In this document: piece by piece, positions 1,219 through 20,541 of the stretch
How positions within the stretch are numbered: the first letter of the stretch is position 1
How the letters are laid out: each line of letters starts with the position of its first letter
Origin: a virus
Virus record (IMG/VR): IMGVR_UViG_3300028883_000149
Coordinates: 1-20,990 of that record
Strand: one strand, 5' to 3'
Length of the DNA: 20,990 bases
Translations under genes and position numbers: made by a program
Notes under the pieces: generated by a model
What the model saw: the letters and a program-made list of their open reading frames with translations, nothing else
What the model was told of the DNA's origin: nothing
Databases searched by the model: none

Positions 1219-1229
1219 AATTTTTCCCC

Positions 1230-2045: not shown

Positions 2046-2054
2046 ACTACCTCC

Positions 2055-3995: not shown

Positions 3996-4003
3996 TGTTC
4001 CCC

Positions 4004-4646: not shown

Positions 4647-4647
4647 G

Positions 4648-7675: not shown

Positions 7676-7686
7676 AATCTCCTTTT

Positions 7687-7717
7687 AGGTGAAGGGGGAT
7701 TGCTCCCCCTGTTACCT
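7687..7717 (-). promoter_or_regulatory. GNRA-capped hairpin between 131-aa gene and NeuB gene
   Basis: Read on the minus strand, AGGGGGA pairs perfectly with TCCCCCT around the loop GCAA, a GNRA tetraloop. An outer AGGT/ACCT pairing extends the stem past a small internal loop. It covers the stop codon of the 131-residue gene and ends 11 bases before the NeuB start. No U-run follows, so it is not a classical terminator; an mRNA-stabilising or attenuating stem-loop is more likely. Confidence 0.6.
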
Positions 7718-8111
7718 ACTGATTTTCCGTCTTTACAACGATGTCAATGTTGCTCGCCTGTTTCGCCTTGGTTGCCATTTTGGCAATCAGAATGTCAGTT
7801 GCTTCGAAATCCATGTTCGTGGTCGAAATGGTTCCCGAATAAAACTTGCCAATATCATTTGTAGACGAAAGGGCAAGGGTCGCCACAACGGTAGTCGTGG
7901 AGTTTTTACACAGATATGCGACACAGTTACAGGTGGTTGAACCCATCGTGTCCCATGAAATCTGTGCGCCCTTAACGGTTTTTACGTGTCCCAAAACAAG
8001 GTTGTCCACCAGTTTCGTGGTGGTCGATGTCCCGCCCCGAAGTCTCGGAAGGGTCAGAATCTCACCAACACCACTGTTGAACAAAGGACAGCTTTCTGAA
8101 TAATCTGCCAT
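7716..8111 (-). CDS. Ser/Thr-rich probable virion decoration protein (131 aa)
   Basis: 131 residues, mostly beta-like, with Thr/Ser clusters (GGTSTTTKL, NSTTTVVATLALSSTND, SGTISTTNMD) and a few Cys. It follows the DUF115-methyltransferase gene with a TAATG junction and an AAGGAG site. I recognise no family. Size, composition and place near the major capsid gene suggest a head-decoration or head-fibre protein. Being sandwiched between a glycosyltransferase-like gene and a sugar synthase, and so rich in hydroxyl residues, it is a natural candidate acceptor for glycosylation; this is an inference. Confidence 0.7.
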   Translation of the reverse strand: MADYSESCPLFNSGVGEILTLPRLRGGTSTTTKLVDNLVLGHVKTVKGAQISWDTMGSTTCNCVAYLCKNSTTTVVATLALSSTNDIGKFYSGTISTTNMDFEATDILIAKMATKAKQASNIDIVVKTENQ

Positions 8112-9577
8112 TAGTTATCTCTCCTTTTACATAGAAAGTGCTGACCTTCCCTCATAACGTCCCATCCGTTTTCGTTGAAGAAATCTTCCCAAAACTTCGG
8201 GGGATATATGGAAAGGTGCGGTTCTATGCGGTTATCTATTTTTTCGTAGCTTTCACAAAAGGCAATAGTCAGGTACAGCGTATTTGCCACACGTTTGAAT
8301 TCGTCCATTGTCTTGTAAAGAAGTTCAGGCGGGATATGTTCCATAACATCACATGCCATGATGATATTGAATTCCCCGTCTTTATAAGGTAAGTCCCATG
8401 CGGTCACACCGGATTTACAGAGATGTTCTATCCCCCCCCAATATTTCGCCACTTCGGTCGAGATGTCGCATCCTTCCGCATACCCGCCAAGTTCGACAAG
8501 CTTTCTGACTCCCGCCCCGCCACCGCATCCTACGTCCAGAATACGATCGCCAAGTTTGGCAACTTCGGGGGCTTCTCTCAGCGAATGGGAAACTCTCATG
8601 TACTTGTCCCCCTGATACGCAAGGTTGTATTTCTCTCTCTCTAAAGTGTATGGATCTTTTGCGAGTTCGCATGCTTCTTTTACTTTCTCTATGGCAACTT
8701 TCAAATCAAGTTGTGTGATATACGGCAGGTGCCCGTCATCTTTTGTGATGCCGAATATTCCTGCCTGTGTTGAATTTATCCACATATAACCGAACTTGTG
8801 CGTCTTGGATGCCATGTCGGTGAGATACGTCCAGTAAAGCAGTAAGGGGGCTGTGGTCTTAACCTCGTTTCCGAAGATATCAATAGCAGGCCATTGCTGT
8901 GACTTGTCTGCGCTTTCTTTGCCATCAACATAATACCCCTCAGTAAATGAATATTCAGTTCCGACAAAGATATATGTTTTGGCTTCAAACACTCCAAAAG
9001 CTACGTTTACAGCAAGTCCAAGCGCATTACCCGCACCAGGGAAACATTCGTCTATATTAAGAACTTCACAGACTTCTTTGTTCAGTTCTTCGTTTTCACA
9101 TCCCATCCCGACATACTTAACAGGACCGTCCCAAGCCTTTATGACTTCCGGTGACACAAGCGTAGCTGCTATCAACATGACATCGCTCAGGTCTGTATCA
9201 ACTGTAAGGTCACGTTCAAGAATGGTCGGGTCAGCATCAGCAGCAACTACGATATGCGGTTTTATGTTGTTTTCAAGGAGCATCTTGAGACTAGAGTTAA
9301 CTGCGATAACAATAAAATTCTCATCGCAGTTCTCTAGCTCATGAATGTTATAGTTCAACGCAGGGGAAGCCCCTACAAAGATACAGGCTCGTCCTTTGCC
9401 TATACCCTTTAAGTCATCCACACATCCGTGTTCGTCGGCAAGAACAAGGTTCTCTCGAATATTTTTCTCATACAAATCCATTCGGCTCTGCTGACAAAAA
9501 GCCTTGTTCTGCATGTTATCCATGAATGTCTGCCATTTTGGATGTGTGTCTAAAAAACTTCCCTCTGCATATTCCAT
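8111..9577 (-). CDS. DUF115/Maf-like putative glycosyltransferase fused to SAM methyltransferase
   Basis: 488 residues in two domains. Residues about 35-300 look like DUF115 / MptE-like / Maf flagellin glycosyltransferases: FVGASPALNYNI at 67-78, HIVVAADADPTIL at 108-120, and GAGNALGLAVNVAFG at 181-195 followed by YIFVGTEYSFT at 202-212. Residues about 335-480 are a class I methyltransferase: ILDVGCGGGAG at 346-356 (SAM loop), GCDIS at 369-373, and ACDVMEHIPPE at 408-418. Maf proteins transfer pseudaminic or legionaminic acid to Ser/Thr of flagellin; archaeal MptE relatives are pterin diphosphokinases, the main alternative reading. The gene lies between the major capsid gene and a Ser/Thr-rich protein, with a NeuB gene two positions on. 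Domain calls are strong; the reaction is inferred. Confidence 0.85.
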   Translation of the reverse strand: MEYAEGSFLDTHPKWQTFMDNMQNKAFCQQSRMDLYEKNIRENLVLADEHGCVDDLKGIGKGRACIFVGASPALNYNIHELENCDENFIVIAVNSSLKMLLENNIKPHIVVAADADPTILERDLTVDTDLSDVMLIAATLVSPEVIKAWDGPVKYVGMGCENEELNKEVCEVLNIDECFPGAGNALGLAVNVAFGVFEAKTYIFVGTEYSFTEGYYVDGKESADKSQQWPAIDIFGNEVKTTAPLLLYWTYLTDMASKTHKFGYMWINSTQAGIFGITKDDGHLPYITQLDLKVAIEKVKEACELAKDPYTLEREKYNLAYQGDKYMRVSHSLREAPEVAKLGDRILDVGCGGGAGVRKLVELGGYAEGCDISTEVAKYWGGIEHLCKSGVTAWDLPYKDGEFNIIMACDVMEHIPPELLYKTMDEFKRVANTLYLTIAFCESYEKIDNRIEPHLSIYPPKFWEDFFNENGWDVMREGQHFLCKRRDN

Positions 9578-9585
9578 ACGCTCTC

Positions 9586-10800
9586 CTATGTGGTTAGATC
9601 GTAGATCAGACCATGACAGGCATCAGCGTTTTCCAGAACCAGTGTGTACTGACCGGAAAGCTGAAAATTCCTTGAACGGCCGGTAGAGGCTTTCTCCTCC
9701 AGCGCCCAAGAGTCGCCCTGTAACGGCATAACCCTGATACGGTTAAGGTCGATAATCAGCACCTTGTCATTGGGAACCCAACGGTCGAGAATTACGTCCA
9801 TCTCAATTCCAAGGTCACTGATAAATTTGTTTGCATAAATTCCACGGGTCTTGTTGGACTTGTCGCCCCGCAGTCTGTCCTGTTCAAGTGCAGAGAATTT
9901 CTGCGCCTGAGTGGCACCGAGAACCATGATACAGTTGTGGTCATCAGGGAACCCGCCAAGGTCAAACATCTTTTTGACCAGCTCGTTCAGCTTGGTAGCT
10001 GACAGGGCGCATGATGCCTGAACAACAGTGGTGTCGTCCAAAGTGCCACCGTCAAGGTCAGGGTCACGGATAAGCTGAATGATTCCAGCAAGTGACCGAT
10101 ACTCTGCAACGTCCGTAAAGGAAGTCCCATTGTGGTAAGCCATACCGTTGATGATAGCCATACCGAGTTCACGCTTAACTTCTTCGGTTCTGCGCTTAGT
10201 CTGTAAGGCCAGTTCGCTGTCAACGGCATACAGGTCGATATGCTCACGGGTTTTCTCGATTTTGATACCCCGCTCAAAAACCTGAGTGAAGTTCTTCCGC
10301 TGAGTACGGGCTTTTGAAATATCATCAGAAGCAGAATCGGCATCTCGTTTCGGCAGAGACGCTACATAAAACTTGGTTCCTGCTGCACAGGTTCCCCAAC
10401 GGGCAGTTGAATTGCCGTGGATTGCAACAGCATTACTTCCAGTGACGGGGGTTGTTGTAAAACGACCGTACCACTCTCCATTTTCCGGATAAATCACAGC
10501 ATCTTTCCGAAGAACCTGCTGTACTTTTGCGTTGGTAGACGGTGAAGTGATGGTCATTTTAATGTTGGTGGATGATGTAACAGTATCAACAGCATTACAC
10601 TGAAATGTTACAGCGTTCATGCTATCTTCCATCCACTTGTGTTCGGTGTTTTTTGCTGCACCCTTCATGGGGATTTTCCCCAGCAGGGCGGTATCTTTCA
10701 GGAGAACACTCTTGAGAACATTCTCCATATCCACTTTGTCTTGCGTGCCGAGAGTTCTCATTCCCGGCTGCGAGTTAAATGAATTTGATGTTAAAGCCAT
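9586..10800 (-). CDS. Major capsid protein, SU10-like
   Basis: 404 residues. The stretch at about 163-220 (RTQRKNFTQVFERGIKI, then EHIDLYAVDSELALQTKRRTEE and GMAIING) matches the HK97-fold capsid family typified by phage SU10 (DUF5309). The C-terminal part (GATQAQKFSALEQDR, DVILDRWVPNDKVLIIDL, SRNFQLSGQYTLVLEN) is also typical. It would form the icosahedral shell. The N-terminal region (about 1-60) could be a delta region, though the separate scaffold gene before it makes that unnecessary. CGGAGA lies upstream of ATG. The order portal, scaffold, capsid is canonical. Confidence 0.9.
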   Translation of the reverse strand: MALTSNSFNSQPGMRTLGTQDKVDMENVLKSVLLKDTALLGKIPMKGAAKNTEHKWMEDSMNAVTFQCNAVDTVTSSTNIKMTITSPSTNAKVQQVLRKDAVIYPENGEWYGRFTTTPVTGSNAVAIHGNSTARWGTCAAGTKFYVASLPKRDADSASDDISKARTQRKNFTQVFERGIKIEKTREHIDLYAVDSELALQTKRRTEEVKRELGMAIINGMAYHNGTSFTDVAEYRSLAGIIQLIRDPDLDGGTLDDTTVVQASCALSATKLNELVKKMFDLGGFPDDHNCIMVLGATQAQKFSALEQDRLRGDKSNKTRGIYANKFISDLGIEMDVILDRWVPNDKVLIIDLNRIRVMPLQGDSWALEEKASTGRSRNFQLSGQYTLVLENADACHGLIYDLTT

Positions 10801-10821
10801 TTTTTATCTCCGTTTAATTGC

Positions 10822-11508
10822 CTATCCAGTGATGGCCTTAAACGCATTTGCGATTTGTGCATCTGTGTCTGTCGGGTCAACGTCAGTAATAGGCTTCGTT
10901 TGTACGGGAACAGACCCACCCGGTGTCAGGTTGGCGAGTTTCTCCGCACGTTCAGTTTCAGTTTCCGACCCTTCCGGCACTACATAACCAAGCTTCTTGA
11001 ACTTTTCGATTTGGCGTTTTACTTCTTCTTTTTCACGTTCCTCTGCCAGTTCAAAGATTTGACCCATCATTCGGGGGTTGTTGTTCAGGTGCGGTTTTTC
11101 ACGGACGACAGCTCTCATATGCTCGTCTAATTCCCTGAACCTTTCCGTTCCAACCTTTTCCCTTAATGCGTCTGCTTCGAGTTCCCACTGAGTCTGCATG
11201 ATTTCGTTTCGTGCTTCCTCTCGTGCGAGCCTTCGTGCGTTGGCTATTGGATCCTCAAAGAACCCGTCCTCTGTCACAGCTTGTCCAATTGCACGGGGCT
11301 GATTGACCATTTTCTTGAGTTCTGCGATTTCCTGTGCCTGTCGAGTCAATGTTGCGTGTGCTTCCTTGTACGACTTTGCCGCCTTTTCAGGGTCATCAAA
11401 CCCAACCTCTTTTAACGGTGCCAGCGGGTCAGTCTCGGTGGCAGGGGTTTCCGGTACAGGCTCTTGTCCTTCTTCAAGGGGAGTCTCGGTCACTTGTCCT
11501 TCACTCAT
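10822..11508 (-). CDS. Capsid scaffold protein
   Basis: 228 residues from ATG 11508, chosen because GAAGGAG lies just upstream; a reading from 11577 would begin inside the previous gene. The N-terminus (about 1-35) is acidic and Pro/Thr/Glu-rich, the middle is almost wholly helical and charged with coiled-coil spacing (about 44-70 and 95-175), and the C-terminus is flexible with Asp/Thr. Helical scaffolds directly before the capsid gene have exactly this make-up; they guide shell assembly and are then expelled. It overlaps the previous gene's end by 8 bases. No sequence family is claimed beyond composition and position. Confidence 0.8.
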   Translation of the reverse strand: MSEGQVTETPLEEGQEPVPETPATETDPLAPLKEVGFDDPEKAAKSYKEAHATLTRQAQEIAELKKMVNQPRAIGQAVTEDGFFEDPIANARRLAREEARNEIMQTQWELEADALREKVGTERFRELDEHMRAVVREKPHLNNNPRMMGQIFELAEEREKEEVKRQIEKFKKLGYVVPEGSETETERAEKLANLTPGGSVPVQTKPITDVDPTDTDAQIANAFKAITG

Positions 11509-11803
11509 GTTTTTCTCCTTCGAGTTTTTGTTTAAACAGGATTTTTTCCTGCATTTCCATCCAGAGTTCGTAGGCAACCTCAGCCTTGTTGAGAGCTTTT
11601 AAACGCTCGTCAGGGCCTTGTTTGCTTAGAACTTCCTGAATGTTCATCATGTCGGTGAGCCGTTTTTTCAGCCACGTACCGCCACGGGTGTTAAGCATTT
11701 GCTCAACGTCCGTTCCGAGGATGATTTTTGCCTGTCTCGCTTTCTTTAAGGCTTCATCTTCGGGTCTTTTGTATGCGACTGCGTTTTGTCTGTAATCAGA
11801 CAT
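11501..11803 (-). CDS. Small helical protein between portal and scaffold (100 aa)
   Basis: 100 residues, largely helical and charged (KKARQAKIILGTDVEQML, DERLKALNKAEVAYELWMEM), with no Cys or membrane segment. GGAGGA is placed before the ATG inside the portal C-terminus, and the gene overlaps the portal stop by 8 bases and the scaffold start by 8 bases, so all three are coupled. I do not recognise it. Genes in this slot of SU10-like phages are often unannotated; a packaging or assembly cofactor is possible. Confidence 0.7.
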   Translation of the reverse strand: MSDYRQNAVAYKRPEDEALKKARQAKIILGTDVEQMLNTRGGTWLKKRLTDMMNIQEVLSKQGPDERLKALNKAEVAYELWMEMQEKILFKQKLEGEKHE

Positions 11804-13505
11804 TCGGTCCTCCTACCAGTTGCAGGGGTAATGCTTGTCCTTGCTGGGGCATTCCCTGTGGCGATGGTGCGCCCATATTTTGAGGGGAACCTTGTCCTTG
11901 TGGGGGTTCCACCTTCTCAATCCATGTGTCGGGGTCTTGATTTAAGGAGTCGTAAACTTTCTTGAGTCCTTCGTATAGGTTCACTTTGAATCCACCTGCC
12001 TGTTGAACTTCCGGCGGGATAGAGGAAGAAACAGACCAAGCCTGCATAGCCTGTTCTGCTTTTAGTGCTTTATTTGCCGTGACCGTGGAGCCGACAGGAG
12101 CAATGTCGTACTGGTTTAAGAGTTCGTTTACATCGGTCTGATAAAACTGCGTTCCCTGTTCTGCGAGTTTCGGGCCGAGAATCCGTAAAAACATTTCTTC
12201 GGGCATGAACCTGCGCATAATCTCAACACCCTTTTGCCCGACCATTCTCATTCCTGAGAACTCAAACAGTTTCATGGTCACGTCAAAACGACCGAGAGTG
12301 GCTTCCTGTAAACGGGTGATACCTGTTGCGGTTTCCTTCCTGTCAGGAGCAGCACCACGACCGTATTCGTATTCTCCGGTTACGTCCTGAGTCTTTTTGT
12401 CGAGTCCTTCCTGAATACGGAAAGTAGATGGTGCGATATCGTGCATCTGAAATTCCGTAACGTCATCAGGCTCGCCAACAGGGATAAGCTGACCAGGTGC
12501 GGAGATGACATCTTCGGGGTCGGTTGCTCCGCCGATCTTCATCTTGAAAATCTTGTTGATAATCAACTCAAAGTTATCGAGAGTGGCAGACCGGACAAGA
12601 TTTGTGTATTCCTGATCCTGTTCAAGCTGTTCAGGGACACCTACACCCATATATTCTCTTGGTGCGGTACAGTACCTTATGTCGATAACAGGGGTGGCAT
12701 ACGGCATTACCCTGTTCGGGTTTTTGCCTGATTCTTTTCGGGAGTCTCTTAATACGGTGTTCATTCCGGCAACTGTGATAATGTCGCCATCAGCGTAATG
12801 ATGTAAAAGTTCGACCTGCGGGCCTGTGGGGTCGTGAAATTCCAAACCGGACGCAATACCGAGTTCGGCAAGGCGGTTCTTGACTTCGTTATTTAAAGTG
12901 TCGTTGCTTCTTGACAGACCTTCGACATTTGAGTAGATACCGGCTTTTTGAAGTTCTTCAAGTTCTGCCAAGCTGACAAGCTGGCGTTCGATAAAGAACC
13001 GAGCCTGAGAGTTTCTTCGTGCGTCAGGGTCAGGGAATCCACTACAATAGTCGATTGTCGAAAAGGACAACCCTTTAAAATCTATATTTTTTCCGTTCAG
13101 TTCAAAGTCAGGCTGGACTTTCAAGTAAGATGTTCCGGCAATGACGCACTGTTTTACCCAATCGTTAAGTTCCTGAAACAGTTCTGCGGACGGGTTATCG
13201 AGTAAATTAGCCAGAACCTTCTCAACCTGCTTGGCAAGGAGTCTGTCCGAACCTTCCTGCGGTAATACAGAGATGATGGGTCTTGACTGAAACACGGTCT
13301 GCATGATTCGTGCGGTCACAACTTCGACAATAGTGTAGGAGATTTTGTCAAAGACCTGATTTCGGTATGGGAACTTGGTTTCGTCAGGAACGCCTCTCCA
13401 TGCCCGATACCACTTATTCTTGTAGTTTTCGTGCCACGGTTGAAAATAGTCCCTGCTTCTGCAATACCGTTCAACAACGAGTGTCAGCGCATCAATATCT
13501 TTCAT
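11796..13505 (-). CDS. Portal protein, SU10-like
   Basis: 569 residues. The N-terminal part (WHENYKNKWYRAWRGV, then FPYRNQVFDKISYTIVEVV) and the core agree with podovirus/SU10-type portals: GTSYLKVQPDF, DYCSGFPDPDARR, PREYMGVGVPEQLEQDQEYT, and an ATGITRLQEATLGRFDVTMK helix in the crown/stem region. The C-terminal 50 residues are Pro/Gln/Gly-rich and probably disordered. Twelve copies would form the DNA entry channel on which terminase and adaptor dock. AAAAGGGA precedes ATG. It sits between the two small genes and the scaffold set in the standard packaging-to-capsid order. Confidence 0.9.
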   Translation of the reverse strand: MKDIDALTLVVERYCRSRDYFQPWHENYKNKWYRAWRGVPDETKFPYRNQVFDKISYTIVEVVTARIMQTVFQSRPIISVLPQEGSDRLLAKQVEKVLANLLDNPSAELFQELNDWVKQCVIAGTSYLKVQPDFELNGKNIDFKGLSFSTIDYCSGFPDPDARRNSQARFFIERQLVSLAELEELQKAGIYSNVEGLSRSNDTLNNEVKNRLAELGIASGLEFHDPTGPQVELLHHYADGDIITVAGMNTVLRDSRKESGKNPNRVMPYATPVIDIRYCTAPREYMGVGVPEQLEQDQEYTNLVRSATLDNFELIINKIFKMKIGGATDPEDVISAPGQLIPVGEPDDVTEFQMHDIAPSTFRIQEGLDKKTQDVTGEYEYGRGAAPDRKETATGITRLQEATLGRFDVTMKLFEFSGMRMVGQKGVEIMRRFMPEEMFLRILGPKLAEQGTQFYQTDVNELLNQYDIAPVGSTVTANKALKAEQAMQAWSVSSSIPPEVQQAGGFKVNLYEGLKKVYDSLNQDPDTWIEKVEPPQGQGSPQNMGAPSPQGMPQQGQALPLQLVGGPNV

Positions 13506-13506
13506 G

Positions 13507-13767
13507 CTATTTTTTCCCTTTTAACGCTTTTTTTATTAAACCCATTATGTCTGTTCCTGCGAGTTTAGCCTCTGCACTAGATACAACTCTCGATGCCGCC
13601 AAATAGTCGCCCGCCGTTGGTTTGTCACCACGATCTTTTGCCATTTCGTCTGCAAGCCTCGCCTTTGTTTCCGACCTCACTCTTTCTTTACCGCTATCTT
13701 TCCCTCTTCTCTTTTTTGATAGTTTCTTTCCACCAAGTACATTTTTTGCCCACCTGTCTTTCCCCAT
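13507..13767 (-). CDS. Small basic protein upstream of portal (86 aa)
   Basis: 86 residues, strongly basic: KKLSKKRRGKDSGKERVR at about 14-31 and KKALKGKK at the end. A predicted helix fills the middle (AAGDYLAASR-like, AEAKLAG). AGGGAGAAAGC before ATG supports the start, and its TAG lies two bases before the portal start. The basic composition suggests nucleic-acid contact or packaging into the head; no family recognised. Confidence 0.7.
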   Translation of the reverse strand: MGKDRWAKNVLGGKKLSKKRRGKDSGKERVRSETKARLADEMAKDRGDKPTAGDYLAASRVVSSAEAKLAGTDIMGLIKKALKGKK

Positions 13768-13777
13768 TGCTTTCTCC

Positions 13778-13945
13778 CTATATCCGAGTCCTTATTACTC
13801 TTGTTCCCTCAACTTTGTTTTTGAGTTCCCTGTATTTCAGTGTCAGTTGGTGAATCAGGCACATGGCTTCATCGTGCTGTTCGATCAATGTGGCAATCGC
13901 CTTTGTGTTTTCCTCGACTTCTTTTTTCAGGTCATCTGTTGGCAT
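13778..13945 (-). CDS. Tiny coiled-coil protein overlapping terL end (55 aa)
   Basis: A 55-residue ORF fills what would otherwise be a gap between the large terminase and the 86-residue gene. It starts at ATG 13945, inside the terminase 3' end (14-base overlap), with GAGGGAATTAA as the ribosome site, and stops at TAG just 10 bases before the next ATG. The protein (MPTDDLKKEVEENTKAIATL at the start) is charged and helical with heptad-like spacing, then basic at the C-terminus. Tight coupling on both sides argues that it is real. Function unknown. Confidence 0.7.
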   Translation of the reverse strand: MPTDDLKKEVEENTKAIATLIEQHDEAMCLIHQLTLKYRELKNKVEGTRVIRTRI

Positions 13946-16181
13946 TTAATTCCCTCAGTTTTGCTAATTGATTTGAAGTTGCAGGGGAGATAGTTAAAAG
14001 GTCCGGGTCTTTTATCCGTGCCAGACCGTCAAGCATGTCGTCATGCGAAGAAACGGGGAAGGCTGTGAATTCGTCCTCTACGAACGTGTCCACAAGGTCA
14101 ACCTCTTTTCCGTCAAGTTGCGTGTAGTAATAATGTTTAGGGAAATATATCTGCCCGTTCTCAAACAACGGGCCAAGCCATTTGATCCGGCCATCCTTTT
14201 TAAGCTGATTTCCACCAACGGGGGTTATTTTGAAACGGTAGGTCTGGCGTTCCTGCTCTGATTCAATATGCTCAATGTCACATTGCATACCATAATGTTC
14301 GTATGCAACGGCTAGCGGTCGATATTGCCTGTGTAATTCGAGTAATTTTGCTGCCCGTTCTGTCAGATTGAATCTGTCTCGAACAATGGCAACAATATAG
14401 TAGTTACTATCCCCACCTATCCCGACCACCCACATAGTTGTGTAATCGTGTTTTCTGCCCTTACAAGAAGCGGGGTCAACCAATATGTAGAGATTTAATG
14501 CGTTCACATCCAGTTTGTTGTAATAACGCAACCATTCCCGTTTAAAGCCTTGAGCGTTATCAGCAACCGGGTCTTGACAATATTGACAATTTTTTGAGCA
14601 ATACCCATTTGCTATATAGTTTCCGGTAGTTGTCTGGATATTGTAAACGGGTAATATGCCTAAATTTTTCTGCCACTTTAGCTTTACCTGATTTCCTTTA
14701 CCTATGTTTCGTGTACCGTTTTTATAAATTCGGTTTATAATATTTTGCTCTTTTGCAAGAAAACCGCGGGTCATGTTTAAAAACCGGATGTAAGTGTCAC
14801 GTCCACCCGTTAAGCAATAAAAACCCTGCATACCATCACGGTTTTCTCTTTCATATTCGTGGAGTGAATACGGAAGGTTTAGCAGGTCGAGACAATATTC
14901 TATTTTCTCGCAAATATGACTGTTTTTTATCGTATCTTGTGTCCAACCTATTCCACCAGAGACGCCACCGTCTGCATCAAAAAAACCCGCAAGATACATG
15001 GCTGCAGACAATTTTTCGCTGTTTAAATAGTTTTGCCCGCAGGGGATATTTATTGCTTTACATAAAGATTTTTGGTGATAACGTTTAAACCCAAGTGGCG
15101 ACCAGTGACGTCTTTCAGGGTGTGGCGCACGACCAGTCCACCATTTATGGTCTGGGGTATGGTCAAAAAAGTCTCCATTGTCCATACAGCTTCTTACCGT
15201 TTCAGCCATTCTTGAATGGGTATAAACAACTTCTGACGGGGTTAGTTTGGCCCTACCGCCATTTTCCCCAAACTCCCACCCTAAAACCTTGTCACCTTTT
15301 TTTATTTCGTAAATAGGCTTATGGCTAAAGTCAGCCATAGTTATTTTTGTGTGTGGACCATGACAAGAAAAAACATAACTTCCCTGGCGTTTTCTGCGGT
15401 CTGTGAGTTCTTCACGGGACATCATGACAGGTTCGCCATCAGGTTTACCGTTCTTGGTCGCAGGATATATACGGGGGGTACATGCCCCTCTCCGCATCAA
15501 AACACGGTATGTGTCATTGAAATGGTAGCGTGTGCCGATATGTCTCTGGATACCGCCCTCTTTACCCAATGATTGGGAAAGTTCCCATGAAGCGGTGGTC
15601 TTTTCCATCATTTCGGGGGTGGTTACGGAACGGTCGGTGACAACATCATCATAGATAAGAACATCAAAATGTTTACTGATAGGCTGACCGTCTACCAGAC
15701 CCCATGCTTCGACAGTACACTCTTTCGGATTCCCTTTACGTTTAACAGTGATTCCTTCATCTTCTGACCATTTGGGGGAATCTTTGTGTGGGTTTTGATA
15801 AAGCACATCGGGATACAGGCTTTTAAGAAGCTCATTATCCTCGAACTCACGCTTGATTTGGCGCAAGAACCCTTTTGCAATAGGTCTTGTGTGGGAAAAG
15901 ATACAGAAAGTTTTTTCGGAATCATTTAATATGTCCTGTATGGTTAATGCACAGGTAATTACGCTACTTTTGTAGTGTTCCCTAGACCACAGGTCAATAT
16001 ATCCATTTGGTTCGGCCTCCACTTCACGGCAACGGTCGAATACAAAATCACGGTTGGCATCATCTCTTTTTAGGATAAATACGAGCAGGAAGAATAAATC
16101 GGTTCTGCCAAGCTCAGCCATACAGTTTGGATCTGCTACCAGAGCTTTCTCGTATAATTCGATTGACTCAAGACGGGTCAT
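13932..16181 (-). CDS. terL: Large terminase subunit (intein-containing precursor)
   Basis: The precursor has 749 residues; removing the intein (273-531) leaves a 490-residue enzyme, normal for TerL. The ATPase part shows a Walker A-like SREHYKSS at 66-73 and a Walker B at 174-179 (VLIYDD). The nuclease part shows the acidic triad: LVDPA with Asp569, AYEHYG with Glu628, and HDDMLDG with Asp715/718. TerL drives DNA into the prohead through the portal and cuts it. The rejoined junction reads YVFS-CQYCQDP, matching the conserved QYxQdP region of terminases. The ATG has no recognisable SD (TTGTAATATACCAC precedes it); an in-frame TAA lies 8 codons upstream, so no longer form is possible. A hairpin and a motif shared with the early operon lie just upstream. 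Confidence 0.92.
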   Translation of the reverse strand: MTRLESIELYEKALVADPNCMAELGRTDLFFLLVFILKRDDANRDFVFDRCREVEAEPNGYIDLWSREHYKSSVITCALTIQDILNDSEKTFCIFSHTRPIAKGFLRQIKREFEDNELLKSLYPDVLYQNPHKDSPKWSEDEGITVKRKGNPKECTVEAWGLVDGQPISKHFDVLIYDDVVTDRSVTTPEMMEKTTASWELSQSLGKEGGIQRHIGTRYHFNDTYRVLMRRGACTPRIYPATKNGKPDGEPVMMSREELTDRRKRQGSYVFSCHGPHTKITMADFSHKPIYEIKKGDKVLGWEFGENGGRAKLTPSEVVYTHSRMAETVRSCMDNGDFFDHTPDHKWWTGRAPHPERRHWSPLGFKRYHQKSLCKAINIPCGQNYLNSEKLSAAMYLAGFFDADGGVSGGIGWTQDTIKNSHICEKIEYCLDLLNLPYSLHEYERENRDGMQGFYCLTGGRDTYIRFLNMTRGFLAKEQNIINRIYKNGTRNIGKGNQVKLKWQKNLGILPVYNIQTTTGNYIANGYCSKNCQYCQDPVADNAQGFKREWLRYYNKLDVNALNLYILVDPASCKGRKHDYTTMWVVGIGGDSNYYIVAIVRDRFNLTERAAKLLELHRQYRPLAVAYEHYGMQCDIEHIESEQERQTYRFKITPVGGNQLKKDGRIKWLGPLFENGQIYFPKHYYYTQLDGKEVDLVDTFVEDEFTAFPVSSHDDMLDGLARIKDPDLLTISPATSNQLAKLRELNANR
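14589..15365 (-). other. Intein with LAGLIDADG endonuclease inside TerL
   Basis: 259 residues, Cys273 to Asn531 of the precursor. The splicing domain shows an N-terminal block starting with Cys and EIKKGDKVLGW, a TPDH element at 342-345 (block B), and a C-terminal VYNIQTTTGNYIANG block followed by CSKN and the +1 Cys of the host protein. The usual penultimate His is replaced by Lys530. A single LAGLIDADG motif (YLAGFFDADGG, about 396-406) marks the homing endonuclease. The insertion is at the highly conserved QYxQDP site, as expected for an endonuclease that targets an essential, invariant sequence. Splicing is expected to be active, because otherwise packaging would fail. Confidence 0.9.
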
Positions 16182-16195
16182 GTGGTATATTACAA

Positions 16196-16212
16196 ATGTG
16201 AGTTAGTTGTTT
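16196..16212 (-). repeat. 17-base leader motif, copy upstream of terL
   Basis: On the minus strand this reads AAACAACTAACTCACAT. It differs by one base from the copy at 19700-19716 on the plus strand. In both places the motif ends exactly 14 bases before an ATG, here that of terL. The shared spacing suggests a leader or protein-binding element rather than chance. Confidence 0.6.
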
Positions 16213-16221
16213 TAAGGAATT

Positions 16222-16241
16222 GGGGAGATTGCCGTCTCCCC
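16222..16241. promoter_or_regulatory. 7-bp stem-loop upstream of terL
   Basis: GGGGAGA and TCTCCCC form a perfect stem around a six-base loop. On the minus-strand RNA the loop is CGGCAA. On the plus strand TTTT follows, which would make only a weak terminator; on the minus strand no T-run follows at once. It lies in the 116-base space between the small and large terminase genes and could set their relative expression. Confidence 0.5.
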
Positions 16242-16297
16242 TTTTCCACTTAAAGACACCCTAGAGTTGCGCTTACATCAGAGGCGTAGGATGTATG

Positions 16298-16639
16298 CTA
16301 TTCGTTATTCACCACCAATTTAGGTTTTTTACTCTCATTTAACTTGTCAAGTACGCTTTTAGCTTCTTCACTTATTTTCACTGTGATATTCTTATCTTCT
16401 GTTTTCTGTGATAATATTTCTTTTGGAAGAAGGTCTATTGCTTTCCAAATCAGCTTTTCTGTGAATTTTTCATCTTTTTTGCATTTGCCATAAAGAAACT
16501 TCTGACCGCCAAGCGCAATATAAGTTTTCCAGATATCATCCTTCAACCTACCTAAACCTGTTTTCTGACCGGGCCTTCTACCAATCGGCTTGCCGTACTT
16601 TGATAATTTTTTGCCATCAGGGCCAATCTTGTATTCCAC
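16298..16639 (-). CDS. Putative terminase small subunit
   Basis: 113 residues from a GTG start (16639) with only a weak purine stretch upstream. The N-terminus is basic with a KPIGRRPGQKTG element. It is followed by a helical LKDDIWKTYIALGGQKFL segment and IDLLPKEI at about 69-76. This plan (basic arm, then a helix with ALGG, then LLPKEI) is common in small proteins next to phage terminases that bind the packaging site. The C-terminal 35 residues are charged and variable. Position directly before terL supports the call; the sequence signal alone is modest. Confidence 0.6.
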   Translation of the reverse strand: MEYKIGPDGKKLSKYGKPIGRRPGQKTGLGRLKDDIWKTYIALGGQKFLYGKCKKDEKFTEKLIWKAIDLLPKEILSQKTEDKNITVKISEEAKSVLDKLNESKKPKLVVNNE

Positions 16640-16796
16640 AACTTTTCTTTCTGTAAACTAAATTTGTGTCAGTGAGGGTAAATTTTTTTACATATACAAC
16701 ACGTTTTTGGCTAAAAAACGCCCGTCAGAGGTGTTTTAAAACTAGAAGAAATAAATTCCCTTAGTGAGCCTTTTTTCGTCTAAATACCCCCGTATT
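16640..16796. other. Intergenic region before small terminase
   Basis: 157 bases without a convincing ORF on either strand. It holds an AT-based inverted repeat (CGTTTTT 16702-16708 / AAAAACG 16714-16720, loop GGCTA). A late promoter or regulatory leader for the packaging operon could lie here, but I see no clear -35/-10 pair. Confidence 0.4.
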
Positions 16797-17027
16797 TCAC
16801 TCTTTCTCGTTGTACCTTGCCACGGCTTCTTTTGCGTTGCGTAATGACGAAAACTCCATTTCGTACACCCACAGATTCGTGTTGATTCCTTCGGCACAGA
16901 GTTCGGCACTTTTTCTACGTTTCAGCATGTTGTGAACACGCTCATTTCCTGTCTGTATCCGGTATTTGTTACCGCAACTTCCAAGAATTACGGTTTCTGT
17001 TGGGGATTGTATGAATTTTTTGGTCAT
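16797..17027 (-). CDS. Hypothetical protein (76 aa)
   Basis: 76 residues, no membrane segment. The middle is basic (MLKRRKSAEL) and the C-terminal half (NLWVYEMEFSSLRNAKEA) reads as strand then helix, suggesting a small alpha/beta fold. It begins at an ATGA overlap with the lipoprotein gene before it, so the two are translated together. No family recognised. Confidence 0.6.
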   Translation of the reverse strand: MTKKFIQSPTETVILGSCGNKYRIQTGNERVHNMLKRRKSAELCAEGINTNLWVYEMEFSSLRNAKEAVARYNEKE

Positions 17028-17575
17028 CTGATAAGCACCAACGGGTTAATATCAAGAAGCATTTCGTCATTTTGCGGTTCAAAAAAGACTATTTCGTCGG
17101 TGGTCATGAACCAGACAATAGAATGACCGGAAATCCACGCAATCCCGCCCATAACGCCATACCAGGGGGAAATATTCAGTTCAGATATCACAGCCATGGA
17201 AAAATCTTTGCAGACAAAAGGGATATCTTTTCGGGATTTCCACCTGTCTATGGGAGAGGCGTGTAGAAAATCCTCTATCCATTCCATAGGAACGGCATAT
17301 TCGCCGCCGGAATACAACCTTAAAGCTGTAAAATCATCCTTAACATAAGGTTCGGAAGTGCCAAGCATCCAAAGCGGTTTACCGAACTGTTCAACGATTT
17401 GTGTCTGTAAATCAGCGGTAGTAGCCTTTACAGCGGATCCATCAGCGACCATATCTTCCAACGTACCCCACTTATCAAGCATATTTCCCCATTCAGCCAC
17501 GGAAGAACCAGCGTCATACGCAGGAATAGTGCAGGATGTGAAAAGAAAAAATATTATAAAAAATTTTTTTGGCAC
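17024..17575 (-). CDS. Predicted phage lipoprotein with Cys/His/Glu protease-like core
   Basis: 183 residues from GTG 17575, with AAAAAGG upstream. The N-terminus (MPKKFFIIFFLFTSC) is a short basic and hydrophobic signal with a lipobox-like LFTSC; Cys15 would be lipidated, though Phe at -3 is not canonical. The C-terminal half shows FVCKDFS (Cys122), SGHSIVWF (His151) and FFEPQND (Glu166), ordered like the active site of papain-like or transglutaminase-like cysteine enzymes, including the fold seen in MOA-type lectins. I infer a secreted or membrane-anchored cysteine peptidase, conceivably a superinfection-exclusion or envelope-acting protein. It is coupled with two very small genes on either side. 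The catalytic reading is tentative. Confidence 0.65.
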   Translation of the reverse strand: MPKKFFIIFFLFTSCTIPAYDAGSSVAEWGNMLDKWGTLEDMVADGSAVKATTADLQTQIVEQFGKPLWMLGTSEPYVKDDFTALRLYSGGEYAVPMEWIEDFLHASPIDRWKSRKDIPFVCKDFSMAVISELNISPWYGVMGGIAWISGHSIVWFMTTDEIVFFEPQNDEMLLDINPLVLIR

Positions 17576-17701
17576 TTACCTTTTTCCCCATTTGGGTTTG
17601 TCAATCGCTTTTCGTAATTCATCCAACAGGTAAATTGCGGTTCGGACTTTACCACGTTTCAGCATGGCTTCAATTTCGTCTATGATATGTTCAGGACTCA
17701 T
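17576..17701 (-). CDS. Tiny helical protein (41 aa)
   Basis: A 41-residue ORF from ATG 17701 to TAA 17576. It overlaps the previous gene's stop by 11 bases and ends immediately before the GTG of the lipoprotein gene; its last codons supply that gene's AAAAAGG ribosome site. The sequence (MSPEHIIDEIEAMLKRGKVR, then a Leu/Ala helix) is amphipathic and basic at the end. SD is weak, so translation probably depends on coupling. No family recognised. Confidence 0.6.
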   Translation of the reverse strand: MSPEHIIDEIEAMLKRGKVRTAIYLLDELRKAIDKPKWGKR

Positions 17702-17897
17702 TGCTAAATTCAATTTCTCTGATTATTTCTGCGATACTTCTGTTTATTTCGTTTAAACAGCCAATGGTTTCCAACTTTTCATCTATAGCACTAACCCTTA
17801 TGTTTCGTGAATATTCCTTATCGCTAAGATATACCCTTATATAAAAATCAGAGTAACTACCGCTCTTTAGTGGCTCTTTCCAAACATCTATTTGCAT
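17691..17897 (-). CDS. Hypothetical protein (68 aa)
   Basis: 68 residues, beta-like N-terminal half (IDVWKEPLKSGSYSDFYIRV) and helical C-terminal half (NEINRSIAEIIREIEF). AGGTGAAG lies before the ATG, which is nested 10 bases into the previous gene's end. The layout resembles other compact phage accessory proteins, but I do not recognise it. Confidence 0.6.
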   Translation of the reverse strand: MQIDVWKEPLKSGSYSDFYIRVYLSDKEYSRNIRVSAIDEKLETIGCLNEINRSIAEIIREIEFSNES

Positions 17898-18133
17898 TCT
17901 TCACCTAAATATTCCCACAACAGCTTAAATGTTTCCGCTCTGTAAATATTTGCAGAGACATCAATATCTTTTCCGTTACGCTTTATTCTTTTGTGATATT
18001 CCCCGTCAGCTCTATTGTTGTTCTCTAGCTCCTCAATCTCCCAACCAAGCATTTTTAGAATATTTTCCAGAAGGCCAATATTACCCCAACAATACTCATG
18101 TGACTTTAATATGGCTTCGTATACGTTATCCAT
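17888..18133 (-). CDS. Hypothetical protein (81 aa)
   Basis: 81 residues, mildly acidic, with a helical N-terminus (YEAILKSHEYCWGNIGLLEN) and a basic RIKRNGKDIDV strand region. The start lies in a 22-base block that is repeated almost exactly at the next gene upstream (18373-18394), with AGAGGG as the ribosome site. The two proteins themselves are not alike past the first two residues. No family recognised. Confidence 0.6.
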   Translation of the reverse strand: MDNVYEAILKSHEYCWGNIGLLENILKMLGWEIEELENNNRADGEYHKRIKRNGKDIDVSANIYRAETFKLLWEYLGEECK

Positions 18134-18149
18134 AGGCCCTCTATGATGA
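18128..18149 (-). repeat. Duplicated translation-start block, copy 1
   Basis: 22 bases spanning the SD and start codon of the 81-residue gene. It matches 18373-18394 at 21 of 22 positions. On the minus strand both read TCATCATAGAG(G/A)GCCTATGGAT. Confidence 0.8.
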
Positions 18150-18171
18150 GTTTGTCCAATCTTCCCTGTCC

Positions 18172-18378
18172 TTATTCCAAATCCCTTAGATATTTTTGAT
18201 TGTTATCACAAAATTTTCCCGTCTTATATTTTTGCAAATTTATGGCTAGACCAGACACTATCTCAGGAATACGTTTCTCAAGACGCTTTTTTGCATCTTC
18301 AACTGCTAATTCAACCTCTTTTTGGGCTGCATCCTTAATTGCGATATTGATTGACTCTATTAGTGTGTTATGATCCAT
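18172..18378 (-). CDS. Hypothetical helical protein (68 aa)
   Basis: 68 residues, strongly helical and charged at residues 1-40 (IKDAAQKEVELAVEDAKKRL), then a hydrophobic turn and a basic, polar C-terminus with one Cys. The pattern suggests a coiled coil or dimer. It starts in the second copy of the duplicated start block. Two neighbouring genes with the same start block probably arose by local duplication of the leader or share a translational control. Function unknown. Confidence 0.6.
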   Translation of the reverse strand: MDHNTLIESINIAIKDAAQKEVELAVEDAKKRLEKRIPEIVSGLAINLQKYKTGKFCDNNQKYLRDLE

Positions 18379-18394
18379 AGGCTCTCTATGATGA
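18373..18394 (-). repeat. Duplicated translation-start block, copy 2
   Basis: Covers the SD and ATG of the 68-residue gene. It is identical to 18128-18149 except for one base inside the SD region (AGAGAG here, AGAGGG there), which would make the two genes differ in initiation strength. Confidence 0.8.
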
Positions 18395-18444
18395 TTATTG
18401 GTTAATATATCTCTATACGCTTCCTCTGAGGGTGGTCAGCACCC

Positions 18445-18657
18445 CTACCCCTCCCCGTTCTTGTACGCAGCATTAAATAGCATGTTGTTTCTTACTCTTA
18501 TTTCTCTTTTCAGCTCTGCGTTTTCTGCTCTCAGTTTTTTATTGTTAGCCAGTAACAATTCATTGTGCTCGATCAGATCATCTGTTAGCCTAATTAGCTC
18601 TTGGCTCCCGCCTGTGGAGCAATGGCATTTGAGTATTGTTTTTCCTTCACTTTTCAT
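18445..18657 (-). CDS. Hypothetical coiled-coil protein (70 aa)
   Basis: 70 residues. A short N-terminal segment with CHC and Gly (residues about 11-17) precedes a long helix with leucine-zipper-like spacing (RLTDDLIEHNELLLANNKKL, then AENAELKREI). The ribosome site is weak (CAGAGA). It is the first gene after the long non-coding stretch, and an AT-rich tract with TATTATATATATACT lies upstream and could hold a promoter. After its stop comes a GGGTG/CACCC stem (18430-18444). No family recognised. Confidence 0.6.
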   Translation of the reverse strand: MKSEGKTILKCHCSTGGSQELIRLTDDLIEHNELLLANNKKLRAENAELKREIRVRNNMLFNAAYKNGEG

Positions 18658-18714
18658 AATTGGCTAATCTCTGTTTTATCACTTTAGTATATATATAATA
18701 GGTAAATATGCCCT

Positions 18715-18807
18715 TTAAACGTCTGCAATCCATATGATCAGCTTATCCAGGTGGTGCTGCAGAGCTGTTATTATGTCGATTAGGGCTTGTTTTATGTAGT
18801 CTGACAT
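18715..18807 (-). CDS. Possible 30-aa amphipathic peptide
   Basis: ORF from ATG 18807 to TAA 18715. The peptide (MSDYIKQALIDIITALQHHL plus ten more residues ending IIWIADV) is a single amphipathic, hydrophobic helix, like small membrane-active peptides. No SD is visible, so the call is weak; it may be chance in an AT-rich region. Confidence 0.25.
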   Translation of the reverse strand: MSDYIKQALIDIITALQHHLDKLIIWIADV

Positions 18808-18899
18808 GGGATGTGGTTAAACTTTCCAGCCTAAATTGAATCTGAATTCAGTTTCATTCCTTTGTAAGTACTTGATTTATCATAATCACAGTATAACAT

Positions 18900-18933
18900 A
18901 GTCTATAAGTCTAGTAGTTTAGTAGGTTGGTTA
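18900..18933 (+). repeat. Degenerate repeat unit, copy 1
   Basis: AGTCTATAAG followed after an 8-base insertion by TTTAGTAGGTTGGTTA. It matches the copy at 19100-19125 except for the insertion and two substitutions. Function unknown. Confidence 0.6.
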
Positions 18934-19024
18934 TGTGCAATTAATGCACAGTTAGTTGATATTTAATGATCGCTGTATGTGGTCTGATGTTATGAATAGT
19001 TCTCTCATTAACCCTTGTGCATTA

Positions 19025-19040
19025 TTAACCATCTGGTTAA
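19025..19040. repeat. Inverted repeat TTAACC-N4-GGTTAA
   Basis: A perfect 6-base inverted repeat with a 4-base centre. It could be an operator half-site pair or a small RNA stem; its neighbour at 18935-18949 has 5-base arms with a 5-base centre. Confidence 0.5.
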
Positions 19041-19099
19041 GTATTTTAAGGTTATGTTGATAAGTTAATTCGTTATATTTAATGGCTATCTCTAGCATA

Positions 19100-19125
19100 A
19101 GTCTATAAGATTAGTAGATTGGTTA
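19100..19125 (+). repeat. Degenerate repeat unit, copy 2
   Basis: AGTCTATAAG directly followed by ATTAGTAGATTGGTTA, the shorter form of the unit at 18900-18933. It sits 6 bases from the stop of the 56-residue gene. Confidence 0.6.
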
Positions 19126-19131
19126 ACATCG

Positions 19132-19302
19132 CTAACAGGCCTTCTTTAATTGTTTATACCGTGCTCTTGCGCCACATGATCTACGGGTCCAGTTTTGTGC
19201 ACCTGTTCTGCCGTTTATTACTAAAGCATGTGTATAAGTGGTATTCTCAAGTCCATTAATATATGCTTGCTTGCGGAGTGCTTTTGCTTTTGTTGCGTTC
19301 AT
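19132..19302 (-). CDS. Small phage protein of KALRKQAY...YKQLKK type (56 aa)
   Basis: 56 residues from ATG 19302, with TAGGG upstream. A longer reading from 19416 would overlap the 52-residue gene in another frame and lacks a ribosome site. The layout NATKAKALRKQAY at the N-terminus and ARARYKQLKKAC at the C-terminus, with a short beta-like centre, resembles a recurrent small phage protein of unknown role. Basic and likely nucleic-acid-binding by composition. It is second in the leftward unit that starts at the 19.54 kb promoter. Confidence 0.6.
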   Translation of the reverse strand: MNATKAKALRKQAYINGLENTTYTHALVINGRTGAQNWTRRSCGARARYKQLKKAC

Positions 19303-19372
19303 AATTACCCTATGTCTTATTATGCTTCGCTGTGTGTTAATCGATTGTAGGCCATTCTCGCGCGCCTGTTTT

Positions 19373-19531
19373 TTACATATTGTTGATGATACCGCTGATC
19401 TTGCGTTCTTCATCATCCCGGATATCTTCCAAGTATCTGTTTAACAAGTCCTGTTCGGCTTCGGGAATATTACGAATTGGGTAATCAATTCCAGGGATAT
19501 CTTCAATTTCTATATCAATCAAGTTGTTCAT
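19373..19531 (-). CDS. Small acidic protein, near-leaderless (52 aa)
   Basis: 52 residues, acidic (MNNLIDIEIEDIPGIDYPIR, then a charged helix LLNRYLEDIRDDEERKISG). The ATG at 19531 starts only 9 bases after the -10 box of a perfect-consensus promoter, so the mRNA would have a leader of about 0-3 bases. AAGG at 19539-19536 could act as an SD only if transcription began further upstream. The place, first leftward gene of a divergent control region, is where phage regulators are often found, but it has no visible DNA-binding motif. Unknown function. Confidence 0.6.
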   Translation of the reverse strand: MNNLIDIEIEDIPGIDYPIRNIPEAEQDLLNRYLEDIRDDEERKISGIINNM

Positions 19532-19539
19532 TATACCTT

Positions 19540-19568
19540 ATTATACCACAATATCTTGTATATGTCAA
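19540..19568 (-). promoter_or_regulatory. Leftward sigma-70 promoter, perfect consensus
   Basis: On the minus strand TTGACA (19568-19563), a 17-base spacer and TATAAT (19545-19540). Both hexamers and the spacing match the ideal. It drives the 52-residue gene and perhaps the small genes beyond it. Confidence 0.85.
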
Positions 19569-19603
19569 GCGATATTTACCTAATTAGCACTATATCTTGT
19601 GGT
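19545..19603. promoter_or_regulatory. Operator-like repeats between divergent promoters
   Basis: ACCACAA (19545-19551) and TTGTGGT (19597-19603) form an inverted pair, and ATATCTTGT occurs twice (19551-19559, 19592-19600), 41 bases apart, or about four helical turns. A related inverted pair, TAGCACTATA (19585-19594) and TATAGTGTGCTA (19669-19680), puts one arm in the spacer of the rightward promoter. These look like sites for a repressor that controls both promoters. Confidence 0.5.
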
Positions 19604-19656
19604 TTTTAATAAGATGAATTAATTTGAATTATTTTAAAGAAAGTTAAAAAAAAGTA

Positions 19657-19684
19657 TTGACATCGTGTTATAGTGTGCTAATAT
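19657..19684 (+). promoter_or_regulatory. Rightward sigma-70 promoter
   Basis: TTGACA (19657-19662), a 16-base spacer and TAATAT (19679-19684). The 50 bases upstream are A/T tracts that could act as an UP element. It would start the operon of small proteins at 19731. Confidence 0.8.
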
Positions 19685-19699
19685 CTTTAATAGAGACAC

Positions 19700-19716
19700 A
19701 AACAACTAACTTACAT
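19700..19716 (+). repeat. 17-base leader motif, copy upstream of early operon
   Basis: AAACAACTAACTTACAT, one base different from the minus-strand copy before terL (16196-16212), and again ending 14 bases before an ATG. Here it lies in the 5' leader, 16 bases after the -10 box, and is followed by an AAGGAG ribosome site. Confidence 0.6.
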
Positions 19717-19730
19717 AAGGAGATACGGCA

Positions 19731-19898
19731 ATGAAATATGAAAAAATTAAAAAAATAACAATCTTTTGTCCTGTATGTAAAAAACAAAGATCCAGACTGT
19801 ATTTTATTGGGAATACGAACAATACGGCTTGTTTTTCATGCTGTCTTGAAATCGAAAATAAAAAGTTTAATAAGGAGGCGCGGCAATGCCAAAATTAA
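19731..19898 (+). CDS. Small zinc-ribbon protein (55 aa)
   Basis: 55 residues from ATG 19731, with AAGGAG 8 bases upstream. The FCPVC pair (Cys13, Cys16) and the CFSCC group (Cys34, Cys37, Cys38) make a typical treble-clef or zinc-ribbon spacing; the N- and C-termini are Lys-rich. It is the first gene of the rightward unit. Such proteins bind nucleic acid or partner proteins, often to alter host transcription; the partner cannot be read from sequence. Its 3' end overlaps the next start. Confidence 0.7.
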   Translation: MKYEKIKKITIFCPVCKKQRSRLYFIGNTNNTACFSCCLEIENKKFNKEARQCQN

Positions 19899-19969
19899 AA
19901 GAACTACTCACAGTAGCAGCAATGGTCACAATGGGTTACATAACAATAATAATTGCATTTATATTTTAA
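19886..19969 (+). CDS. 27-aa membrane peptide
   Basis: 27 residues from ATG 19886 within the end of the zinc-ribbon gene. AAGGAGG is 10 bases upstream in a CGGCAATG context identical to that of the previous gene. The peptide (MPKLKELLTVAAMVTMGY, then ITIIIAFIF) is a short basic head followed by one membrane-spanning helix. It could act on the host membrane or be a regulator; its size prevents family assignment. Confidence 0.55.
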   Translation: MPKLKELLTVAAMVTMGYITIIIAFIF

Positions 19970-19982
19970 GGAGGGTTTTATT

Positions 19983-20123
19983 ATGGATTTTAGCGATTAC
20001 GAAAAACAAATAATCATAGACCTTCTCGAATTTGAACAAATTGAACTTGAAAAAGACGGTTTAAAATCATCAGAACGCTTTAAAAATGTATTATCAGCAT
20101 TAATAAAACTAGGGGGTGAATAA
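19983..20123 (+). CDS. Small helical protein (46 aa)
   Basis: 46 residues after AAGGAGGG. The N-terminal two-thirds is an acidic helix (DYEKQIIIDLLEFEQIELEK), followed by a second short helix (SSERFKNVLSALIKLGG). It ends at a TAATG junction with the RHH gene, so the two are translated together. Two helices of this kind suggest a small dimer or a partner of the RHH protein. No family recognised. Confidence 0.65.
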   Translation: MDFSDYEKQIIIDLLEFEQIELEKDGLKSSERFKNVLSALIKLGGE

Positions 20124-20263
20124 TGGAAAAGGTCGCAGTAAACATACAAATGCCCGTATCCGTGTCAGCCTGGATTGACAAGAAAGCACGGGAAGAAAAC
20201 CGGAGCAGATCAAATATGATACTCACAATTATACTTAAAGCTATGAAGGAGGGTGAAAAATGA
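20123..20263 (+). CDS. Ribbon-helix-helix regulator (Arc/CopG-like)
   Basis: 46 residues with the full RHH plan: beta strand VAVNIQMPV (residues 4-12), helix A SAWIDKKAREEN (15-26) and helix B SRSNMILTIILKAMKE (28-43). The NRSRSNM turn is typical of CopG/Arc proteins, which bind short inverted repeats as dimers. It could act on the inverted repeats between the divergent promoters just upstream, and so control its own operon; this is inference. Stop and next start overlap as ATGA. Confidence 0.8.
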   Translation: MEKVAVNIQMPVSVSAWIDKKAREENRSRSNMILTIILKAMKEGEK

Positions 20264-20541
20264 TAGATAAAGACATCATAGAAATTGCAGAAGAACGAAA
20301 CAATGTATATATCAACCCTGATACGATGATGTATAACAGGGACAGCCGGGAAGCAACATATGGTTGGGATGCAGTTCCGAAATACTGGATAGAGTCGATC
20401 AAAATCGAAGAACATATCGAAGAATCAGGTGGTTTTAATAATTGGCGAAAATGGAACAGGGAAGAAGTGGCCGAATGGGTGCAAACCAATTATGATTGTG
20501 ACGATGAAACCGCTAAAGAGGTCGCCTTTTACATAAGCTAA
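20260..20541 (+). CDS. Hypothetical protein (93 aa)
   Basis: 93 residues, acidic, rich in Trp and Tyr, with no membrane segment. A C-terminal part (NREEVAEWVQTNYDCDDETAKEVA) looks like a helical SAM- or UBA-like repeat. Last gene of the rightward unit. Its TAA interlocks with the TAG of the convergent resolvase gene (CTAA), so both share bases 20538-20541. No family recognised. Confidence 0.65.
   Translation: MIDKDIIEIAEERNNVYINPDTMMYNRDSREATYGWDAVPKYWIESIKIEEHIEESGGFNNWRKWNREEVAEWVQTNYDCDDETAKEVAFYIS

Follow-up and report, generated by a model that had tools for sequence, protein, structure and literature searches.

Paired NrdR-like boxes at a phage promoter suggest that a host nucleotide sensor times viral genes

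Two NrdR-like boxes at a leftward phage promoter

What controls the divergent promoter region at the right end of a phage packaging and virion gene block? The window (the whole stretch of DNA analysed) is a complete IMG/VR record of 20,990 bp. All of its large genes lie on the minus strand, with the promoter region at the right end of their block. The leftward sigma-70 promoter, TTGACA-N17-TATAAT (minus strand, 19540–19568; −35 hexamer 19568–19563, −10 hexamer 19545–19540), has a 17-bp spacer (19546–19562) and a TGn extended −10. It scored 12/12 and was the sole such site detected in the window, against an expectation from shuffling of 0.01 per shuffled window. Just 8 nt lie between the −10 box and the ATG (19531) of a 52-residue ORF, so a leader of ~0–3 nt is expected from the usual start site, and the mRNA of this gene is predicted to be leaderless or near-leaderless. 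The first-pass annotation had described a perfect-consensus leftward promoter with an ATG close to the −10 box, as we confirm here.

Among nine stretches of viral contigs that share the promoter and its spacer motif, one type (L018–L020) has its promoter ahead of an operon for the NrdG-like and NrdD proteins of anaerobic ribonucleotide reductase, NrdD being confirmed in the record of L018. This arrangement made NrdR the suspected regulator. The NrdR box consensus is acaCwAtATaTwGtg (PMC4009431). In the window, it is matched at 13/16 positions by both a proximal box, CCACAATATCTTGTAT (19546–19561), and a distal box, GCACTATATCTTGTGG (19587–19602), the latter upstream of the −35 hexamer. These are the two best consensus matches of the whole 21-kb contig. 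The proximal box sits inside the promoter spacer and fills it, thereby overlapping the RNA polymerase site. Together the two boxes bracket the −35 hexamer and stand 41 bp apart, or four turns of DNA.

The published pair rule calls for C.[AT].A[AT].[AT].G twice, with 20–23 or 30–33 nt between (PMC12051234). Gaps are part of the rule because NrdR requires its two boxes to lie an integer number of turns apart (PMC12051234). In the window this regular expression matched CAATATCTTG at 19549, within the proximal box, and CTATATCTTG at 19590; the 31 nt between them fall in the published "long" class of 30–33 (PMC12051234). None of 300 shuffled windows, none of 5000 shuffled intergenic regions, and no position in 2 Mb of simulated sequence reached the pair score of 26/32. 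The ATG-to-box distance is also alike in Listeria nrdDG (13 bp from box 2; PMC12051234) and at the window promoter (14 bp). A phage nrdG/nrdD operon promoter (L018, 1519–1582) carries a strong box and a weaker box 41 bp on, the spacing of the window.

Judged by their sequence, the repeats between the promoters match two NrdR boxes and do not look like a lambda-like operator set. They comprise a 16-nt direct repeat, TACCACAATATCTTGT (19544–19559) and TAGCACTATATCTTGT (19585–19600), whose copies are 88% identical, start 41 bp apart, and are each dyads in themselves. The ACCACAA/TTGTGGT arms noticed earlier are present, but they form just the edges of this longer dyad repeat. TTGTGGT by itself was not enriched (6 copies vs 4 expected), and TAGCACTATA was likewise unremarkable. 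Its relative in the rightward promoter spacer is a poor copy, with 85% identity across 13 nt and a two-base shift.

Cellular nrdD boxes provided a comparison. The strict box-pair pattern matched none of 398 genomes from one Clostridia phylum; it was too stringent for a positive control, and nrdD loci were scanned with a matrix instead. Among 30 nrdD loci drawn from genomes of one Clostridia phylum, the phage-box matrix recovered box pairs in 21. With all spacings from 22 to 59 allowed, the best cellular pairs were spaced 31–33 in 20 loci and 43 in one. A matrix of the cellular boxes in turn ranked the window boxes first (distal, 18.8 bits) and second (proximal, 17.7 bits); the third-ranked site reached 10.0 bits. 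The window pair totalled 36.5 bits; the window lay outside both training sets, although the cellular boxes had themselves been chosen with the phage matrix.

Searches for ribonucleotide reductase (RNR) genes found neither PF02867 nor PF13597 in the contig, and no PF13597 in a partner contig of the same virus. Because no RNR gene turned up in the portion of the genome available here (the other half being unseen), we did not file the promoter as a standard RNR promoter of the NrdR regulon. The phage contig also lacks an NrdR gene. NrdR occurs in most bacteria (PMC9110341), and we assume its presence in the host of the window phage.

Genes on either side of the promoter region

The leftward block (1–18657, minus strand) comprises small genes followed by terS-like, intein-containing terL, portal, scaffold-like, capsid, and tail or virion genes. 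A second contig of the same virus, identified by an identical capsid protein, extends it leftward by at least ~3.7 kb with more virion-like genes, giving ~23 kb in all behind the promoter. The terL intein (gene at 13932–16181, minus strand) contains a LAGLIDADG domain (Pfam LAGLIDADG_3, 9e-5), and relatives have no insert at that place. By eye, the virion block also includes a NeuB-like sugar synthase (6869–7675, minus strand) and a protein whose C-terminal part resembles a methyltransferase (8111–9577, minus strand). Rfam and tRNA searches gave no matches.

The first leftward gene would encode a 52-residue acidic protein, p52 (19373–19531, minus strand), whose start codon coincides with or adjoins the predicted start of transcription. 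At 0.013 its coding score was weak, exceeding the 90th percentile for antisense ORFs and lying within the range of pieces of true genes; p52 is probably a real gene. The first-pass annotation had likened its near-leaderless mRNA to that of some phage repressors transcribed from a maintenance promoter. Our results lend the repressor reading no support. The protein has 14 D/E against 5 K/R and matched no family in profile searches, and a single-sequence structure prediction (pLDDT 63) gave a disordered N-terminus and one helix, with no DNA-binding fold.

The second leftward ORF encodes a 94-residue basic protein, p94 (19132–19416, minus strand), called from the ORF and its coding score, with an inner Met at 19302 as a possible start. 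A 474-bp gap separates it from the next leftward gene, and no terminator-like site was listed there. This AT-rich stretch (18658–19131) has no convincing gene, an imperfect 29-nt direct repeat (18905–18933 and 19097–19125), and small palindromes. It could be an origin or a packaging site.

Rightward transcription has its own sigma-70 promoter, TTGACA-N16-TAATAT (plus strand, 19657–19684; 10/12, TGn before the −10), in accord with the earlier reading. Behind it, five small genes with strong SD sites form a divergent operon (19731–20541, plus strand). These encode a CxxC protein, a 27-aa membrane-like ORF, a 46-aa ORF, an RHH protein (20123–20263), and a 93-aa ORF. The CxxC protein (19731–19898) was considered as a stripped NrdR zinc ribbon and dropped by eye, no RRRR motif being present. 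The small RHH protein proposed for this operon is supported by a match to the Arc-like repressor family phrog_3431 (E=3.7e-5), Pfam RHH_5 matching below its cut-off only. It may regulate its own operon. The locus had been proposed as a genetic switch or decision point; a regulatory point heading virion genes stands, but its operators match the sites of a host repressor and not evident phage-repressor sites.

No homologues of p94, the RuvC-like protein, or the portal protein were found in viral contigs, and tblastn of p52, p94, p93, and the RuvC-like protein in phages returned nothing significant. A terminase search of viral contigs did give 11 relatives, and none of these had the RHH gene. None carried the box pair either, so the pair is not conserved in that clade (L002–L014).

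Recurrence of the box pair in other phages

We scanned 2.9 million viral contigs for a box, 20 to 33 nt, and a second box directly before TATAAT. A total of 43 stretches matched, which by our own grouping represent ~24 phage types. Gap lengths were 22 (17 stretches), 21 (11), 20 (10), 32 (4), and 23 (1); none of the 43 had a gap of 24–31, although the pattern permitted it. Exchanging the conserved C and G gave a control pattern with 0 matches in viral contigs. In vitro, inversion of the conserved C/G pairs reduces NrdR binding by a factor of 50 or more (PMC9110341). Where the pattern did not constrain the distal box, 176 of 260 positions agreed with the NrdR consensus, compared with ~101 expected in AT-rich DNA. 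A perfect TTGACA, likewise outside the pattern, lies 17 bp upstream of the −10 in L015, L034, L039, L045, and L056 and 18 bp upstream in L062. The cellular matrix recovered the pair in 22 of the 24 recurring types and none in control phage loci totalling 167 kb. One stretch (L034, 8882–9001) holds four NrdR-like boxes in a row, at spacings of 31, 31, and 42 bp.

Single boxes were treated differently. The one-box pattern TTGACANNNACAAGATATTGTGGTATAAT matched 9 viral and 2 bacterial stretches, and a single box was discounted as evidence because the bacterial matches precede a Veg-like gene. These perfect promoters of a Veg-like gene, from two rumen or gut Clostridia (L024, 6316–6344; L025, 4285–4313), each carry a single NrdR-like box in their spacer.

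About half of the recurring types have terminase, portal, or capsid genes downstream, as a raw share that includes some short contigs and several SPP1-portal phages of possibly common descent. An SPP1-type portal gene follows directly in L015, L034, L039, and L055, and another portal family in L042. Directly downstream in other types are terminase then portal (L033, L050, L062), terS-methyltransferase-terL (L028), and a SU10-type capsid protein (L060 and a near-identical group). terS follows directly in L047 and ~1.3 kb down in L044. A terminase-like gene upstream of the promoter in L034 and L039 places the promoter between terL and portal; L015 and L055 have an ORF of the same size in that place, with no Pfam match. 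By eye, L015 also has a strong terminator-like hairpin and T run <100 nt past its box-pair promoter near 10308 (minus strand) and before the portal gene. This promoter may thus yield a small RNA or require antitermination; the hairpin region had no Rfam match.

Other pairs lie in regulatory or early regions (the L032 group, L048, L051, and L059). L032 is Streptococcus parauberis prophage Javan389, whose pair, with a gap of 32, belongs to the long-spacing class reported for most streptococci (PMC12051234). Javan384, Javan385, and Javan389 share one pair, Javan399 has a different pair with 33-bp spacing, and Javan271/411 showed no pair in the matched stretches. In the Javan phages, the −10 box on which the search relied is oriented opposite to the early genes. 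Between these relatives, the early-region pair shows turnover in both box sequence and spacing (42 vs 33 bp; L063, 3682–3739; L096, 2323–2371).

Searches of the records with recurring pairs detected no RNR gene apart from one of class I/II, which lies elsewhere in the record of L053. Likewise, the only NrdR match in these records was a weak one of 26 bits, below the cut-off, in the record of L062 (G031 C1:24364–24741), where the box pair stands before terL.

Proposed control by NrdR, alternatives, and known systems

Our data make it likely that the leftward promoter is under the control of the host nucleotide-sensing repressor NrdR, which would couple the virion block to replication. The NrdR tetramer binds DNA with ATP plus dATP, but not with ATP alone (PMC12051234, PMC9110341). 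NrdR boxes on a phage promoter would therefore mean repression at high dATP and firing as replication proceeds. When dATP is abundant, the ATP/dATP-loaded tetramer would bind both boxes and exclude RNA polymerase. As phage replication drains dATP, NrdR would release the boxes and the very strong promoter would fire, starting the near-leaderless 52-residue gene and then the packaging and virion block. With such genes behind the promoter, a host protein would in effect operate a late switch coupled to replication; the borrowed sensor would tie structural genes to replication without a phage-encoded one. We infer NrdR binding at the boxes, readthrough across the whole block, and the timing. In Streptococcus pneumoniae undergoing lytic infection, strong induction of RNR operons that carry NrdR sites is seen from 10 min onward, and the NrdR regulon is reportedly derepressed by phage infection (PMC6755750).

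Several observations weigh against this model: the terminase relatives (L002–L014) lack the pair, half of the genome is missing and could contain RNR genes, the 474-bp gap separates p94 from the next leftward gene, and the recurring pairs are not all at late genes. The gap also bears on an alternative that we consider unlikely, in which the boxes are NrdR sites but serve dNTP supply. The promoter would then mainly serve expression of p52 and p94, which might influence NrdR or nucleotide metabolism, and transcription of the virion genes would depend on other promoters or factors. Such a role would suit the well-studied NrdR targets, all of which are RNR genes, as well as the phage nrdG/nrdD operon with such a box (L018). 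However, the known part of the genome has no RNR-type gene, in other phages the pair immediately precedes portal, terminase, or capsid genes, and a promoter scan found no second leftward promoter above 9/12 near the gap.

It is distinctly improbable that a phage protein (the RHH protein or p52) represses these operators, in a classical immunity or Arc/Mnt-like switch. RHH proteins often autoregulate, this RHH gene lies in the divergent operon, and each promoter spacer holds one site. Yet the sites fit NrdR boxes in both sequence and helical spacing, that in the rightward spacer is a poor copy, and p52 is acidic and lacks a DNA-binding fold. Phages with the same sites are also without this RHH gene, as far as tested in the terminase relatives. 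Chance resemblance, in which a strong constitutive promoter lying in AT-rich DNA mimics an NrdR pair by accident, is barely credible. A single box overlapping TGGTATAAT does occur at the host promoter of the Veg-like gene in two Clostridia, so one box beside a −10 can arise without evident NrdR function. The window pair, however, exceeded every shuffle and simulation, the recurring pairs occupy permitted spacings only, the swapped control was empty, and the control phage loci held no pair.

Control by NrdR thus remains our preferred reading, and the recurring promoters suggest that phages borrow the host sensor of DNA building blocks for timing their own genes. Opinion could fall evenly on a broader claim, that many unrelated phages have independently put NrdR-box pairs on packaging and virion promoters, the dATP sensor serving as a late switch that is coupled to replication and needs no phage activator. 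NrdR has been described as a repressor specific to RNR, and use of its sites by phages would widen its role to the timing of viral genes. Phages could then sense the consumption of dNTPs by replication without encoding a sensor, and late-gene activation in some phages with no obvious activator would be explained. Late transcription would further be predicted to depend on host dNTP state, including dNTP-depleting defences.

In lambda-type divergent immunity switches, the repressor mRNA is leaderless. The window likewise has divergent promoters, a leader predicted to be short, and operator repeats between, but its first gene is not an evident repressor and its operators match a host regulator. 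Late transcription in T4 is coupled to ongoing DNA replication, as we propose for the late genes here. T4 uses a phage activator and clamp, whereas coupling at the window promoter would go through the dNTP pool and a host repressor. The bacterial NrdR regulon (for example, Listeria nrdDG, Streptococcus nrdHEF/nrdDG, and E. coli nrdHIEF) shares the box sequence, the integer-turn pair, and the overlap with −35/−10 (PMC12051234). That regulon drives RNR, whereas the window promoter belongs to a phage, heads packaging and virion genes, and has no RNR gene in the known part. The open-access literature searched held no description of NrdR boxes at phage promoters. The nearest precedent is "lytic deferment" in Alphaproteobacteria phages, whose CtrA-controlled promoters likewise let a host factor reading host state control phage genes (PMC9437464). 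CtrA is a cell-cycle regulator, in contrast to the dATP sensor NrdR, whose candidate sites are known here from sequence in several phage types.
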